Positions 51,481 to 64,000 of a stretch of 64,000 bases of DNA are shown piece by piece. The notes beneath the pieces are model-generated. The model searched no databases and had not been told where the DNA came from. It saw nothing but the letters and a program-made list of their open reading frames with translations. The stretch spans positions 98,832-162,831 of the forward strand of contig WRBK01000001.1 in assembly GCA_009784575.1 (NCBI GenBank), given 5' to 3'. A program made the translations under genes and the position numbers. The DNA is from Defluviitaleaceae bacterium (GTDB lineage: Bacteria; Bacillota; Clostridia; Lachnospirales; WRAX01). How positions within the stretch are numbered: the stretch's first letter is position 1; every line of letters starts with the position of its first letter.

Positions 51481-52389
51481 TTAATGGCGGCTTCGTCTGT
51501 GTCTATTGAGCATATCTTCTGCTTTTTGGAATGCTTCGCGGCTGATTATAGGGGCATGATGGTCTTTTATGATTATAAATTCCTCTTCGCCTTGGTTTTG
51601 TTTTTTGTCATGGGTTAGATAGTCAGGTGTGAAAGTCTTTTTCTGAACTAGGTCGCCGCAGTATTTTTCATTGCGTAGTATTTTGTGGATGGTGGTGTGC
51701 GACCATTCTTTGCGACCTGTTATTGTTGTGTATCTTTCTTGTGAAAGGGTGCGGGCTATGGCGTGGCAACCCATGCCTTTGTTTATGTACATGTCGAAGA
51801 TAAGGCGAATTATGCTTGCGCCCTCTTCGTTTATGTGCATCTTGCCATTGCGCACATCATAGCCTAGCATACTGCGCCCAAAGACTACACCTTTTTCCAT
51901 CTGCCGCTTTTGCCCCCATTTTACGCGCTCGGAGGTTTTGCGGCTTTCTTCTTGGGCTATGGATGCCATTATGGTTAGGCGTAGCTCTGCATCTGCATCT
52001 AAGGTGTTTATATTGTCATTTAAAAAAATAACGCCTATGCCATGTTTTTTTAATTCGCGGGTATATTGTATACTATCTAGCGTATTGCGGGCAAATCTTG
52101 ATATTTCCTTAGTGAGGATGAGGTCAAAATCCCCTGATACGGCGGCTGATATCATGCGGTTAAAATCCTTGCGTTTTTTGGTGCTGGTGCCAGAAATGCC
52201 TTTATCCGCAAAGATTTCATGTAGTTGCCACTTCGGTATTTTTTGTATGTATTGCTCAAAATATGCCCGCTGGGATTCTAAGGAGTTTGCTTGGTCGAGA
52301 CTATCTGTAGAAACGCGGCAATATGCAGCTACGCGCTTGTATTGCGCAGCTTTTGCACGCATCTTGTTCATTTTCTCATATTTTTCCAT
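51481..52389 (-). CDS. Serine recombinase (resolvase plus recombinase domains; no C-terminal zinc ribbon/coiled coil)
   Basis: AAYCRVSTDSLDQANSLESQ catalytic Ser region; ISRFARN; ends at AEDMLNRHRRSRH*. Confidence 0.93.
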   Translation of the reverse strand: MEKYEKMNKMRAKAAQYKRVAAYCRVSTDSLDQANSLESQRAYFEQYIQKIPKWQLHEIFADKGISGTSTKKRKDFNRMISAAVSGDFDLILTKEISRFARNTLDSIQYTRELKKHGIGVIFLNDNINTLDADAELRLTIMASIAQEESRKTSERVKWGQKRQMEKGVVFGRSMLGYDVRNGKMHINEEGASIIRLIFDMYINKGMGCHAIARTLSQERYTTITGRKEWSHTTIHKILRNEKYCGDLVQKKTFTPDYLTHDKKQNQGEEEFIIIKDHHAPIISREAFQKAEDMLNRHRRSRH

Positions 52390-56381: not shown

Positions 56382-56582
56382 CTATGTACACGACATACCT
56401 ATATCGTTCAATATGGCCTTGGCTTCGGGCGTGACCATCGTAAATCTTTGTGAAAGATAGCGTATGGCCGCGCCCAATTCGCCGTCTGGGCCTCCATACT
56501 GCGTAATTATCACCTTTGCCAGCCTTGGGTTGGGCTTTTTTATATTTACGGGGAATTGGAGTTTTTTCTCATAAATCCACAT
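56382..56582 (-). pseudogene. cotJC: cotJC N-terminal part
   Basis: MWIYEKKLQFPVNIKKPNPRLAKVIITQYGGPDGELGAAIRYLSQRFTM...ILNDIG then divergent MSCT*. Confidence 0.95.
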
Positions 56583-57289: not shown

Positions 57290-57466
57290 TTGAAAGCAAC
57301 GGGAATTGTAAGAAGAATTGATGATTTGGGGCGTGTGGTTATCCCTAAGGAGATAAGGCGCACCTTGAGAATAAGGGAAGGTGACCCATTACTGATAATG
57401 TTGGATAAAGTAAAGAAGCGGGAGTTTGCGGTGCTTCAGCTAGGGGAGAGGTTGGATTTTACATAG
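57290..57466 (+). CDS. Short AbrB/SpoVT-type DNA-binding protein (58 aa)
   Basis: MKATGIVRRIDDLGRVVIPKEIRRTLRIREGDPLLIM...; TTG start with AAGGAGGAG RBS; below the ORF track length cutoff. Confidence 0.85.
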   Translation: MKATGIVRRIDDLGRVVIPKEIRRTLRIREGDPLLIMLDKVKKREFAVLQLGERLDFT

Positions 57467-57471
57467 GCAAT

Positions 57472-59295
57472 CTACTTCTTGCTTGGGATTTCGTTCACTA
57501 GGAATGCATCCAGCTCATCGTGAAGCGATGAGAGCATTGGGTAGCAGTTCTTTGAATACCAACTACATAACTTGATTACAGCAGACAAAAAATACTTTGA
57601 TAAGTTCCCATTACCTTCAATACTACATATCATTCCATGAGCAATTTTGTTTCGCAAGTTCGCTCCCGTATCCTCTATGAGCAGCCCTTTGAACATGAAT
57701 AGGAGGTTTTCATCATAGCAGTCAATTAATTCCTCGGAGTTGAAAATCGAAGTCATCAATTTCCATTCTTCTGTGCGGTTCTCGTTGAAATTTGTTACGA
57801 GTCCGCCACATGATTTGACAAGTTCTCTAAAGAGATTTTCGACCTGCGGTACAAGAAGATGTAATGCAGAATAATAATCGCCATTTAGACCTAGGGCAAA
57901 TCCTGTTTTGAAAATGTGTTTCCTGTTATCAGGGATAAACCAATTATGGTCAACTAAAAAATCCATGTCGTTTGCGACAATACCTTTGTGTTCGTTTTGT
58001 ATAATACTTAAAACCATACCCATAAACGATAACGCTGAAAGATCTTGTATCCGTGTCATCATATGTAACATATGTTTTTCAAAAAGAGCATGATTGGATT
58101 TTGGATCGTTAATGTCAAGAGGGGGAATGTGTGCAATTATTTTACCACCACTATCCAGAAGCGTGGTGGTAAAGAGCTTACTGAAAAAGAACTCACTATG
58201 ACTTTGTAGAACTTCATTTTCTAACTCTTGCTTGGTTGGAAAGTGGGTCAGCATACCTAATATCATGATTTTTTCTTGCAAACTTCGTTGGCACAGAAAG
58301 TCCTTTAGTTTAATATATTCTTGTGTTCTGTCGACCTCATGCGACATGACTGGCATTTTCTTAACATACTCACTTTTGAGTGAGTCCATCTCTAGCCTTA
58401 TTCGCTTTACATCATCTGGTCTATTTGCATTGCGGTACAATAAAACAGCCGATTCAAAAAAGTGGATTGCGTGTTGCAAGTCTGATATGCTATCCTTTGA
58501 AATATAATCCCGAGCGAGACCTTCCATGTATGTAGCATAATCATTTTGTGCGATTAGTACGCCTTCATCGTTTTTGAGTTTGCGAAGCAGTTTGATTTTT
58601 AGATCAAAAGCCGACTCTGCTCTTGATATATTATTTTTCTGGCAAGCATCATCAATAATCTTGTTGACGAATACAACATAATCCTGTAGCTTGTTGAATC
58701 CATTGTCTATCATCAGACCAATCATATTAATAGATAAAAAGAGTGTGTCCGTTCCGTCAATTTCTTTAATTACAGAGTCAATATAAGTGCATAAATCCAA
58801 AAAAGAATTTGAGCTATGATTTTTGCCTAGCTGAAGAGCTATTCTATTTGCTTTTTTTATGAAACTAAAATATGTACTCCAATTTTCTTTGTCAAATGTC
58901 GACTTTGCACATTCTTTATACGCTCCGACAGCCTTTACTGCGCATATATAATCTTTCCTAACCGTCCAAAGCAAATCTGATATCCGAGCAATCAAAATAG
59001 GGCGGGATAAATCATCAATAATTAATCTAAGGTTATCCAAATCTTCGTCTTTGAAATCAGATACACTCAAAGGCTGCCCATTATTCAAAACAGCTGAACC
59101 GAACGGAGCGTTTTCTTTCTTAACATCGTGATGTAGTGACATAGCGTTCCCTAGAAGCCTAAAGACAGCTTGCTCGTTTGCGTCCTTAGAACTATCTGCC
59201 AACTTATGCAAGTTGCAACCATAAATAAATGTGTACGTATCAATATCAGTAAACACATCTGTCATCTGCGTAATTATTTCGGGCGTTATTTGCAT
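57472..59295 (-). CDS. DUF4209-like helical protein with HEPN-like RNKIAHG motif (putative defence)
   Basis: 607 aa; GDYYSALHLLVPQVENLFRELV...LRNKIAHGMI C-terminal region. Confidence 0.6.
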   Translation of the reverse strand: MQITPEIITQMTDVFTDIDTYTFIYGCNLHKLADSSKDANEQAVFRLLGNAMSLHHDVKKENAPFGSAVLNNGQPLSVSDFKDEDLDNLRLIIDDLSRPILIARISDLLWTVRKDYICAVKAVGAYKECAKSTFDKENWSTYFSFIKKANRIALQLGKNHSSNSFLDLCTYIDSVIKEIDGTDTLFLSINMIGLMIDNGFNKLQDYVVFVNKIIDDACQKNNISRAESAFDLKIKLLRKLKNDEGVLIAQNDYATYMEGLARDYISKDSISDLQHAIHFFESAVLLYRNANRPDDVKRIRLEMDSLKSEYVKKMPVMSHEVDRTQEYIKLKDFLCQRSLQEKIMILGMLTHFPTKQELENEVLQSHSEFFFSKLFTTTLLDSGGKIIAHIPPLDINDPKSNHALFEKHMLHMMTRIQDLSALSFMGMVLSIIQNEHKGIVANDMDFLVDHNWFIPDNRKHIFKTGFALGLNGDYYSALHLLVPQVENLFRELVKSCGGLVTNFNENRTEEWKLMTSIFNSEELIDCYDENLLFMFKGLLIEDTGANLRNKIAHGMICSIEGNGNLSKYFLSAVIKLCSWYSKNCYPMLSSLHDELDAFLVNEIPSKK

Positions 59296-59316
59296 ATATA
59301 GCTCCTTACTTCTATT

Positions 59317-60342
59317 CTAATCTTCCTTAATCTCATATTTCCTCATAACTCGCTTCTCGATATCTTCAGCAGACGGCAACGTATCCGCCAACTCCTGCGG
59401 CACAAAGTCAGACAACCTATATTCGCTCACGCCGATAGGCTTGTTGATATCCTTCAGCGCATATTCGGCAGTCAGCTTGTCCCTCTCCTTGCAAAGCAAA
59501 ATGCCAATCGATGGATTATCCTGCTCATGCTTCAACATATCATCCACCGCCGAAAGATAGAAATTCAGCTTGCCTGCATATTCCGGTTTGAAATCCGTAT
59601 TTTTCAATTCGATAACGATATAACAGCGCAGCTTGGTGTTATAAAACAGCGAGTCAATATAATAATCCTTGCCGCTAATCTCCAAATGATATTGGTTGCC
59701 CACAAAGGCAAAGCCCGTCCCAAGCTCCATAATCGTCTTAGCTATGCTCGCAACAAGTTCCTGCCCAATTTCGCGCTCAATAATTCCCTCGCGCTGCTCA
59801 ACAAAATCAAAAACATACGGATTTTTGAAAGTCTCAATCGCAAGATTGCTTTGTGATTGCGGGAGTAGGGCTTTGTAGTTTGTTGCCTTCTCACCAATCG
59901 CTTGTCGCTCATAAGTTTTCGTATCAACATAATATTCAAGAGACGATAAAGACCACCCATTCTCAATTGCTTGGGCAGCATACCACAAATACTCATCCAG
60001 CGCTTTGGTTTTGTCAAAAAGATATTTATTATGCGACCATGTCAAAAGTGCAGACACTGCCTGCAGATTTTCCTCATCCTGCACAAGTCGTGCAAATTTT
60101 TTCATGTATTGCAAATTGCGAACAGAAAATCCCTTTGTATCAGGAAAATCCAACCTAATGTCGCGCGCAAGGTTTTCAACAAAGCGATTGCCATAACTGC
60201 TATTTTCAAATATGACTTTGCCGATATTCCAATATAAAACTATCTGCTCACGATTTGCACCAAGTACGGCGCGATATTGCGCCTCTCGGATTGCAATTTT
60301 GATGTTCGCTAGGACTTCCATGTACCCCTTATCATTTATCAA
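59317..60342 (-). CDS. PDDEXK nuclease-domain protein (DUF1016/YhcG type)
   Basis: YWNIGKVIFENSSYGNRFVENLARDIRLDFPDTKGFSVRNLQYMKKFA; YIDSLFYNTKLRCYIVIELKN catalytic D/ExK. Confidence 0.92.
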   Translation of the reverse strand: MINDKGYMEVLANIKIAIREAQYRAVLGANREQIVLYWNIGKVIFENSSYGNRFVENLARDIRLDFPDTKGFSVRNLQYMKKFARLVQDEENLQAVSALLTWSHNKYLFDKTKALDEYLWYAAQAIENGWSLSSLEYYVDTKTYERQAIGEKATNYKALLPQSQSNLAIETFKNPYVFDFVEQREGIIEREIGQELVASIAKTIMELGTGFAFVGNQYHLEISGKDYYIDSLFYNTKLRCYIVIELKNTDFKPEYAGKLNFYLSAVDDMLKHEQDNPSIGILLCKERDKLTAEYALKDINKPIGVSEYRLSDFVPQELADTLPSAEDIEKRVMRKYEIKED

Positions 60343-60367
60343 CATATCGTCCTCCTGTGCTGATAAG

Positions 60368-63300
60368 CTAACGCTCATTAAATATTTTCGAAAGCTCATT
60401 CAAAATTGTGTTACGAACCTTTCCTCTCAAACTGTATCTATCGCCAAAATCACTAAAATGTAGTGACAAGGCCATATTTGATACTCCAACACCATAGCCT
60501 TTACGTGAAAGGAACTTTAAGGTCTTGACGGCTTTGCCTAGGTTATCTCTGGTATTCCAGTTACTTCTTTCGGAAGTATCCATAATTTCAACAAGAGTGT
60601 CACACTCGCTAAGTTTGTGTTTTGCTTCCCAAGTTACAGTTACCGTGCAATCCTTTGGCAGATTTCGCTGCCTATCGTCGGTATTAGCAAAAATAATTAC
60701 CTGAAACTGGATTGGTCCACAGGCATAAAAAGTTAAATCATTCTTCAACGTAGGAAATAAATTATCAACGAAATGACGATATGATATCTGATATGCATCG
60801 TAATATGTAGCTACTCGTTCTTTGATCTGATCAATAGTATACCCTCCATAAATACTACTTGTTTGAATGCCTTCACCTTCGCTTCTTGGCGGAAAGTTTC
60901 TTTTTGGAGTCAGAGAGAATAGTGGGTCAATACCGCTCTCTATAACGCTTGTGATAAGTGCATACAGTATAACGAAACTGATATTATTTTCTCCAAATCC
61001 ATTTCTCTTAAGGTACTCCAAGTTTATTACAGGATGAAATAGCTCCTTAAGTTCTGCAAGTGAAACATTTCTCAAAGATAAACTTGCCCTTTCCGTCTTG
61101 AAGGCCTCAGCTACTACTTCTTTAGGGAGTAATTTCAAGCATTGTTCAAGATATTCACATTGAGCAAAAGGATGCTCGGAAAATAATAAGGAATCGCCCT
61201 CCAAAGTTCTTTTGAGAACTTTATATACTATCTTTACTGCGATTTCGCGGGCACAATCGATCCCATTAAAATAATGTCTTAAGTCATAACTAAAATTTCT
61301 TTGACCATCAGTAAATGAAAGAGTAGGGGTTATGACGCAATCTTGATCATCAACTTTGGTGATGGTCGGGCGAATGTTTGTGAAATCTACAATGACTCTA
61401 TCTGCGATATTGATATCGCTTTCGGCTCCATCGATACAAATGTATATATAGTAATCATTCAAGTTGATACTTCCATCAACTACTGCGACTGCATTTTCCA
61501 AGTCCGCGCTATCCCTAAGCTCTCTCCAAGGGTGGAAACTCTGAATCATACTTGAGAAATGAGTACGCACTATATTTTCGTAACTAATAATTAATTGTTG
61601 AAATAGGTTCTTGCATGCGGCTTCGGTCAAATTGTCGGCATATTCATTTGAAAAGCTATATCTCGCATATAAGCACTTCACATAAAGAGCAAGATTATTT
61701 CCTTCCAGATAATCCAGCAATTTATTTTGAAAACCAGAATTCCTGATGCTCCCAAACATCAGAATCAGAGCGTTTATATATTCATCTTTTTCGCTTGCGA
61801 TACCAATATAATCATAAATCTGATCTTCGCTACTTTCGGCCAAATAGATAGAGCAAAAATATTCTTTAACCGCATCAAACTGAAAGTTAGTAACGCCGTC
61901 ATATTGATAAATCAATTTGCTATCTGTAAGCTCTTTAAACACAACTGACACATCGGAATTTGGCAATATCGACAAAATTTTTTCCGATAATTTAATGTCG
62001 TCCTTTGGGTTCATAGTCATCTCAAAAGCAACAGTAGCTAAAATTTGCCTTAAAGATGTATCGAGAGAATACTTGGGAATCCTTTTGTCCAACAAATTGA
62101 TGATATAGTGGTTGTATACAGCCGCCAGATTTTTTGGCTTTATACCATGCGCTTGTTCTTTTTCTATGAACGAAAGATACATGGACAAAAACAACGGGGC
62201 GCACAAGAAATCTTTTAGGTTTTGACTTACTCCGTGAGTCAACCAAATTCTATAGCCCAAAACTTTGTGGGCAATATCGTTTATTTGTTCTTCGGATAAA
62301 CCTTTCAGTTCAAACTGTTTAAACAAATGGGGCAACATCTTGATTGAGCTATCTCGTTTAGTCGTGACGATCATACCCAAATCACTACTTGTAGAAATAT
62401 CATCTATCTCTTTTAGTAGCACATCGAGGTTGTTTCTGCACTCATCAAGACCATCAAACAACAAGAAAAAATTATTTGACATAAGCCCACTCTTTACACC
62501 GGCAAGCGTCAGTGAAGGTATATAATGACGTAGCTCGGCAAATATACCGCCCTCTAAAGTGTCAAATGACCTACTCCACAAACTACAACGCAAAACAATG
62601 GGCACAACATCGCTCTTGCCGTCTAAATATCTCATTGATAAAATCTTAGCGATGTTATACAGACAATATGTTTTTCCGTATCCAGACTGAGCAGTTATCA
62701 CGGACTTGGATGCATTGATTACATTATACAAGGAAATGGAATTTGAACTCGCGCATACAAACGATTGCTCTGCGCGCCATTCATGCTCTGGTATGTTCAT
62801 TGAAAGCATAGATAAGCAATAATCATCAAATACCCTATTTTGAATTTGATTATCATCAACAAGATGACTCTTCTTTTGATTTAAGACATCGAAGCTAATG
62901 TGACTTTCTAATTCAGTCCAGTGAGTGAGCAAATCGGCAACATCGCATGATAAGATTGGCTTATCAGCACCACCATCTATGACTTTGAATACAGCAATTT
63001 TTGCACCATTCGTCACCAAGTAATACAAAGCTTTTGTCCACATAACATATGAAATAGCTTGCCCCAAAGAGCCTTCAATATTTTCTGAAGGCCTCTTTAA
63101 CTCGACAACCAAAAGAGAGTGGTTTGCTACCCAATTTCTGCTTTCTAATGTGTCTGTTTTATTATTCTTATAATACATTGACGAGAACAAAACAATATCG
63201 GCATACTTTGTTTTCTTTTCGCCGCCAAGGTTCATGTGTACAGGAAATTCCTCAGAACGATTCACTCGAGGATGGCCCAGTGACTCCAATATAGGATTGG

Positions 63301-63403
63301 CTATTTTTGTCCTAACTTCTGTTTCGGATGCCAAAGTCATATTTTTAAAACTTGCAATCTGTTGTAGTATACTGTTATTGCTTTCATCTAGAATGTTTGC
63401 CAT
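60368..63403 (-). CDS. STAND NTPase: N-terminal HsdR_N-like nuclease domain fused to NACHT (bNACHT-type defence candidate)
   Basis: KYADIVLF...LLVVELKRP (PD-(D/E)xK); AQSGYGKTYCLYNIA (Walker A); FFLLFDGLDECRN (NACHT Walker B). Confidence 0.8.
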   Translation of the reverse strand: MANILDESNNSILQQIASFKNMTLASETEVRTKIANPILESLGHPRVNRSEEFPVHMNLGGEKKTKYADIVLFSSMYYKNNKTDTLESRNWVANHSLLVVELKRPSENIEGSLGQAISYVMWTKALYYLVTNGAKIAVFKVIDGGADKPILSCDVADLLTHWTELESHISFDVLNQKKSHLVDDNQIQNRVFDDYCLSMLSMNIPEHEWRAEQSFVCASSNSISLYNVINASKSVITAQSGYGKTYCLYNIAKILSMRYLDGKSDVVPIVLRCSLWSRSFDTLEGGIFAELRHYIPSLTLAGVKSGLMSNNFFLLFDGLDECRNNLDVLLKEIDDISTSSDLGMIVTTKRDSSIKMLPHLFKQFELKGLSEEQINDIAHKVLGYRIWLTHGVSQNLKDFLCAPLFLSMYLSFIEKEQAHGIKPKNLAAVYNHYIINLLDKRIPKYSLDTSLRQILATVAFEMTMNPKDDIKLSEKILSILPNSDVSVVFKELTDSKLIYQYDGVTNFQFDAVKEYFCSIYLAESSEDQIYDYIGIASEKDEYINALILMFGSIRNSGFQNKLLDYLEGNNLALYVKCLYARYSFSNEYADNLTEAACKNLFQQLIISYENIVRTHFSSMIQSFHPWRELRDSADLENAVAVVDGSINLNDYYIYICIDGAESDINIADRVIVDFTNIRPTITKVDDQDCVITPTLSFTDGQRNFSYDLRHYFNGIDCAREIAVKIVYKVLKRTLEGDSLLFSEHPFAQCEYLEQCLKLLPKEVVAEAFKTERASLSLRNVSLAELKELFHPVINLEYLKRNGFGENNISFVILYALITSVIESGIDPLFSLTPKRNFPPRSEGEGIQTSSIYGGYTIDQIKERVATYYDAYQISYRHFVDNLFPTLKNDLTFYACGPIQFQVIIFANTDDRQRNLPKDCTVTVTWEAKHKLSECDTLVEIMDTSERSNWNTRDNLGKAVKTLKFLSRKGYGVGVSNMALSLHFSDFGDRYSLRGKVRNTILNELSKIFNER

Positions 63404-63419
63404 GCCGTATTCCTCCTAG

Positions 63420-63647
63420 CTAATTGCTATGTAGATTTTTTAAATCATACTGAACTTTTATCGTCTCCGTCAACAACCCAACCGCATTCACAATATGGTC
63501 AAAATCATCTATAGTCATGGTCTTGCCTTTGTGGGATTTGAACCATTTATCCGGCACTTGGCAGCTGCTTATTCGGTATGTCCCAATACCATTTTGTTTC
63601 AGCAAAGCCCTGTCTGATATCTCGTGCAAGACTTCCGATGTGACCAT
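63420..63647 (-). CDS. Small hypothetical protein, first gene of the defence-like operon
   Basis: 75-aa ORF, same strand, 16 nt upstream of the NACHT gene. Confidence 0.5.
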   Translation of the reverse strand: MVTSEVLHEISDRALLKQNGIGTYRISSCQVPDKWFKSHKGKTMTIDDFDHIVNAVGLLTETIKVQYDLKNLHSN

Positions 63648-63666: not shown

Positions 63667-64000
63667 TTAATTAGCCCCCCTGTAAAAAACCGCAAATCCA
63701 GTACCTGACTGCCCACTATACGCAAATACTAACTCACCATTTGCACCAACAGACATAAGGGTTACGTGTATTTCTGTAACGGAAATTATCGGCTCCATTG
63801 TTTTATTTTCAAAATCTAAGCGGCGTATGTATGAACGCTCTTCGAAGCCTACCTGATGACTGCCATGGCCGCCCAGCGTGCTGCTAACATACCAAATCCG
63901 AGGATTATTTGGATCAGGGATAAATGCACTCCAAGTTTCATTTTTATTGAACCTCCACCAATCTGCAGGGGATAGTATGCCGGTCTCGAAATCGAAATAG
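63667..64000 (-). CDS. C-terminal part of a hypothetical protein running off the window
   Basis: Open frame with no start in window: ...SPADWWRFNKNETWSAFIPDPNNPRIWYVSSTLGGHGSHQVGFEERSYIRRLDF...GQSGTGFAVFYRGAN*. Confidence 0.65.
   Translation of the reverse strand, partial: YFDFETGILSPADWWRFNKNETWSAFIPDPNNPRIWYVSSTLGGHGSHQVGFEERSYIRRLDFENKTMEPIISVTEIHVTLMSVGANGELVFAYSGQSGTGFAVFYRGAN

Follow-up and report, generated by a model that had tools for sequence, protein, structure and literature searches.

Closely spaced nuclease-NACHT, YhcG-type nuclease and DUF4209 genes of a Defluviitaleaceae bacterium: defence-type modules without conserved linkage in the loci sampled

Three large genes of defence type and one small open reading frame (ORF) lie together, all on the minus strand of the ORF list, at positions 57472-63647 of a 64,000-nucleotide (nt) stretch of contig WRBK01000001.1 from a Defluviitaleaceae bacterium, and the question they raise is whether they make up one system or several. 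We refer to the whole stretch as the window. We are moderately confident that the genes are a small defence cluster of modules, each probably autonomous, led by a nuclease-NACHT sensor that resembles bNACHT25 in design. Each of the three large genes belongs to a known kind, and two are already listed as single-gene defence candidates (PDC-S02 and PDC-S39). A preliminary description of this DNA had reported four co-directional minus-strand ORFs, and these lie where it placed them, except that the start of the YhcG gene has moved from 60399 to 60345. The features are as follows.

60368..63403, minus strand: STAND protein with an HSDR_N-type PD-(D/E)XK nuclease and NACHT, 1011 aa (Pfam and motifs)
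59317..60345, minus strand: DUF1016/YhcG PD-(D/E)XK nuclease, 342 aa after start correction (Pfam, PADLOC and homologs)
57472..59295, minus strand: DUF7380 and DUF4209 protein, a helical-repeat solenoid with a C-terminal HEPN-type RX4H motif, 607 aa (Pfam, PADLOC and AlphaFold2)
63420..63647, minus strand: relic of a type IIG/ISP restriction-modification enzyme, corresponding to its C-terminus, 75-aa ORF (PADLOC)

Linkage of the three large genes was surveyed at 40 loci with DUF4209 relatives, comprising 15 plasmid loci, one phage locus, three loci from other genomes and 21 from viral contigs, with all linkage counts covering the fetched flanks only, a few to about 10 kb. Because several of the viral loci are near-identical relatives of P2, the independent DUF4209 cases number fewer than 40. 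No NACHT-family relative stood beside any of these loci, and YhcG was found at two. Neither a NACHT relative nor DUF4209 was found at 25 other YhcG loci (16 from the class, 9 from viral contigs), and neither YhcG nor DUF4209 at the three other NACHT-family loci, which come from Lysinibacillus fusiformis, Phaeobacter and genome G791. The full trio was seen at 0/40 DUF4209 loci, 0/25 other YhcG loci and 0/3 other NACHT-family loci; the three-gene linkage is not conserved in this sample. Co-occurrence, which the preliminary description had set beforehand as a test that could refute it, largely fails in the sampled loci, with the exception of a YhcG-DUF4209 pair in Pontibacter. Its multi-gene defence island stands as three defence-associated, closely spaced genes, while the reading as a single new multi-gene system is mostly unsupported.

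The 1011-aa protein had been described as an HsdR_N-like nuclease fused to NACHT, and both domains are found by Pfam, HSDR_N_2 at E 7.9e-9 and NACHT at E 1.8e-6, the latter with 28.3 bits against a cut-off of 26.7 (1.6 bits over). The D...ExK nuclease motifs are intact (ADIVLF from residue 68, VVELKRP from residue 99), as are Walker A (SGYGKTY from residue 240) and Walker B (LLFDGLDE from residue 314); the predicted functional residues are K244 in Walker A and D69, E101 and K103 in the nuclease. No Pfam family matches the C-terminal region of about 470 residues. An architecture of nuclease, NACHT and C-terminal sensor region is supported by these matches, and nuclease activity is predicted. 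No PADLOC model, Avs models included, matches the protein at E up to 1. Sequence searches of the PDB gave no match for any single protein of the cluster; a PDB search with an alignment gave only a weak match, to the NLRC4 NACHT (E 0.002). A single-sequence AlphaFold2 model of the NACHT protein was unusable (predicted local distance difference test, pLDDT, 32.5).

The closest relative of the NACHT protein is encoded on an L. fusiformis plasmid and aligns over residues 218-1008, with 26% identity and 115 bits in the C-terminal region, where 100 shuffles gave at most 23.5. The N-terminus of this relative is a trypsin domain of the Avs1b type (E 8e-20), and the gene upstream encodes an Avs1a-type metallo-beta-lactamase (MBL) nuclease (E 1.4e-90). 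At this locus (L005:10031-14364), the trypsin-NACHT protein matches the Avs1b model in its N-terminus only. Judged from these matches, the locus is an MBL nuclease-protease pair attached to another sensor. The MBL-trypsin pair is an antiphage effector by experiment and has been acquired repeatedly (PMC12799240). The third family member, in genome G791 from the same taxonomic order as the window, has a different N-terminus without a Pfam hit; profile comparison of the C-terminal regions gave an hhalign probability of 99.3. The gene for this member (L128:6443-10540) adjoins an hsdR C-terminal fragment, echoing the restriction-modification relic upstream of the NACHT gene in the window. A further HSDR_N_2-NACHT protein, from Phaeobacter, is a more remote relative whose C-terminal score is marginal (26.9 bits, shuffles up to 23.1). 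Three different N-termini are thus carried by this C-terminal family, on the window protein and two securely related proteins. Because the same C-terminal region occurs on different N-termini, the comparison suggests that the NACHT protein is an effector-swapping immune sensor of the STAND type.

Relatives of the NACHT protein were otherwise scarce. Direct homolog searches of the genome contigs found none for it or for the DUF4209 protein, and no homolog of it was found in the phages or viral contigs searched. A survey of 390 class genomes found the NACHT body in none of the others; the one weak match, in genome G310, we rejected as a relative since the protein proved to be an HSDR_N-N6-methyltransferase. 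Other low-scoring matches in the phylum covered the NACHT part only.

In architecture, the window protein can be compared with bNACHT25 and bNACHT32, PD-(D/E)XK-NACHT proteins of clade 6 whose phage defence requires a nuclease active-site residue (PMC12169576). All three are single proteins with an N-terminal PD-(D/E)XK-type nuclease, a central NACHT and a C-terminal sensor; the window protein differs in that its nuclease is of the HSDR_N_2 type and its C-terminal region is without a Pfam family. The likeness to Avs1 runs through the L. fusiformis relative, in which a nuclease-protease pair of the Avs1 type is combined with a related NACHT and C-terminal body; in the window protein an HsdR_N nuclease takes the place of trypsin. 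No Avs1a MBL partner was seen immediately upstream, where the ORFs are the restriction-modification relic and a gene that runs into the contig end and has no Pfam hit. The Phaeobacter locus (NZ_CP031953) shares the HSDR_N_2-NACHT architecture at 22% identity over 618 columns, but there the NACHT gene is partnered with SIR2 and DUF87/HerA-like genes.

The second gene had been described as a DUF1016-type PDDEXK nuclease, and we find the same: in the ORF-list version of 360 aa, Pfam identifies DUF1016_N (E 7e-34) and YhcG_C (E 1.6e-60), and residues D245, D249, E264 and K266 of the PD-(D/E)XK site, counted from the 60399 start, are invariant in five sequences. The listed start at 60399 gives a 32-nt overlap with the NACHT gene. 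An AGGAGG lies 5 nt before a start codon at 60345 (MLINDKGY), and a close YhcG homolog in locus L059 begins with MLINDDKY at the equivalent residue. The true start is most likely 60345, and on that start the overlap is spurious; translational overlap of the two genes was rejected on the same two observations. The protein matches PDC-S02 over its full length (E 1.4e-128). YhcG was present in 25 of 195 class genomes surveyed, with copies bearing internal stops in several class relatives, and is abundant on plasmids (426 records). Elsewhere it sometimes overlaps or adjoins type I restriction-modification genes; by contrast, the window gene has no restriction-modification partner except the relic. 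In two viral contigs (L117:4962-6014 and L119:4995-6035), YhcG stands alone between tail-protein and tape-measure-like genes, neighbours that were identified by eye, and this position suggests autonomy.

For the 607-aa protein, the preliminary description had proposed a helical DUF4209/HEPN-like protein with RNKIAHG, and the domain, the motif and a helical model agree with it. Pfam finds DUF7380 (E 5.8e-26) and DUF4209 (E 2.3e-10), and PADLOC gives a near full-length match to PDC-S39 (E 5.7e-114 over residues 31-582). The RNKIAHG motif supplies R548-X4-H553, which fits the RX4-6H catalytic pattern of the HEPN superfamily; neither residue varies across two alignments, one of 10 and one of 15 diverse sequences. 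DUF4209 was placed in the HEPN superfamily in 2013 and occurs in operons related to restriction-modification (PMC3710099). The AlphaFold2 model is helical, with a solenoid resembling tetratricopeptide repeats (TPR) and a mean pLDDT of 81.4. Structure matches cover mainly the TPR-like residues 18-314 of this predicted HEPN protein, and the Foldseek and VIA matches are to generic helical repeats and 14-3-3/TPR folds, which are not proof of a HEPN fold. The PADLOC check proposed in the preliminary description thus named two of the three large genes and left the NACHT protein unassigned. PDC-S39 was in no other of 195 class genomes surveyed, and we found no functional data on it in the literature searched. 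In a Salmonella record and in a P2-type phage of Escherichia, DUF4209 genes lie between the replication protein gene gpA and the portal gene gpQ; in other viral contigs their neighbours are portal/terminase-like genes. The gpA-gpQ interval of P2, in which DUF4209 occurs alone, is a described defence hotspot (PMC9122126), and the repeated position there supports DUF4209 as a defence gene.

The small ORF, counted in the preliminary description as a member of the cluster, does not belong to it. The 75-aa product matches positions 1021-1073 of the 1096 of the PADLOC REase_MTase_IIG model (E 2.7e-5) and has weak similarity to the ends of Nostoc type ISP enzymes; no further match to this model, hence no enzyme body, was found anywhere in the assembly. 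On these matches the ORF is a restriction-modification relic and not part of any system here, and a restriction gene presumably once stood at this site.

Along the minus strand, 16 nt separate the relic from the NACHT gene, 22 nt the NACHT gene from YhcG, and 21 nt YhcG from the DUF4209 gene; the large genes, which may be co-transcribed, each have their own ribosome-binding site (AGGAGG for NACHT, AGGAGG for YhcG, AAGGAG for DUF4209). Window base 64000 is the end of the contig, so the gene upstream of the cluster is incomplete; the assembly consists of 1.84 Mb in 41 contigs, with an estimated completeness of 81%. Rfam gave no match at the locus, nothing informative was found among repeats, a ResIII search of the bacterium's own genome gave no lead for the cluster, and comparison of the flanks in relatives did not yield a usable empty site. 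Just downstream of the DUF4209 gene, a 58-aa plus-strand ORF (57290-57466) has an N-terminal domain of the MazE/AbrB type (E 1.7e-8). Farther along is a truncated cotJC (56382-56582), a 66-aa ORF matching positions 1-63 of the 284 of manganese catalase, which stands behind CotJA and CotJB ORFs and beside a gene for an SLH-domain protein. A 302-aa serine recombinase with Resolvase and Recombinase domains is encoded at 51481-52389, about 5 kb from the cluster, and could mark a mobile segment.

If the genes act in defence, the C-terminal region of the NACHT protein would detect a phage product, and the NACHT ATPase would oligomerise, by analogy with STAND biology. The oligomer would cluster the N-terminal HsdR_N-type nucleases, which would cut DNA and stop infection, probably by sacrificing the cell. 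YhcG, as a second PD-(D/E)XK nuclease, may add a further DNase, and the DUF4209 protein, a predicted HEPN RNase on a TPR-like solenoid, would probably act on RNA once infection is sensed.

Three points weigh against a cluster of autonomous modules. The 22- and 21-nt gaps and individual ribosome-binding sites are also expected of a co-evolved operon. The sample gives a weak test of how rare the trio is, because it has only three other NACHT-family members, the distant Phaeobacter one included. Finally, on a plasmid of Pontibacter akesuensis, from another phylum, YhcG lies directly upstream of DUF4209 on the same strand, 84 nt apart (L110:3559-6408) and in the same order as in the window, so these two, at least, may work together.

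The Pontibacter pair, with the same gene order and a 21-nt gap in the window, speaks for the alternative that YhcG and DUF4209 are a genuine two-gene nuclease and HEPN system, next to which the nuclease-NACHT gene is a separate gene. Consistent with this alternative, Deinococcus sp. QL22 holds both genes about 5.4 kb apart, by a type I restriction-modification locus. However, 38 of the 40 DUF4209 loci are without YhcG in the fetched flanks, and the Pontibacter protein resembles the window protein mainly in its C-terminal DUF4209 part, with no DUF7380 hit. Moreover, because YhcG is so common on plasmids, one chance pairing in defence islands is plausible. We regard this alternative as unlikely. 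Also rather unlikely as a whole is a bolder combination, in which the C-terminal region of about 470 residues is a new NACHT sensor family that exchanges its N-terminal partners (an HsdR_N nuclease, a trypsin of the Avs1 type together with an MBL nuclease, or an N-terminus without a Pfam hit), and in which YhcG and DUF4209, as a true two-gene system of nuclease and RNase, have been joined to it.

One new three-component system, with the NACHT sensor triggering the YhcG and DUF4209 nucleases, would fit the co-directional genes and short gaps, and one sensor with several effectors is conceivable as a design; however, the NACHT family occurs at three other loci without YhcG or DUF4209 nearby, no member lies near the 40 DUF4209 or 25 YhcG loci, and the NACHT protein has an effector of its own. 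This reading is highly unlikely, and the linkage results correct the claim of a new system in three parts, which is tempting but weak. Least probable of all is a decaying island without a present defence role, its genes left from past transfers, which the relic directly upstream, the truncated CotJC and the internal stops in YhcG copies of relatives would favour, but against which stand three intact large frames that have ribosome-binding sites and in which the active-site motifs are conserved.

With the cluster read as probably autonomous modules, the best remaining lead is the unclassified C-terminal family of the NACHT protein, followed by the single YhcG-DUF4209 pair. An unclassified candidate sensor with three N-termini offers a defined way to ask what the C-terminal region detects, and if the sensor is retained as effectors are exchanged, its carriers may share one phage trigger.

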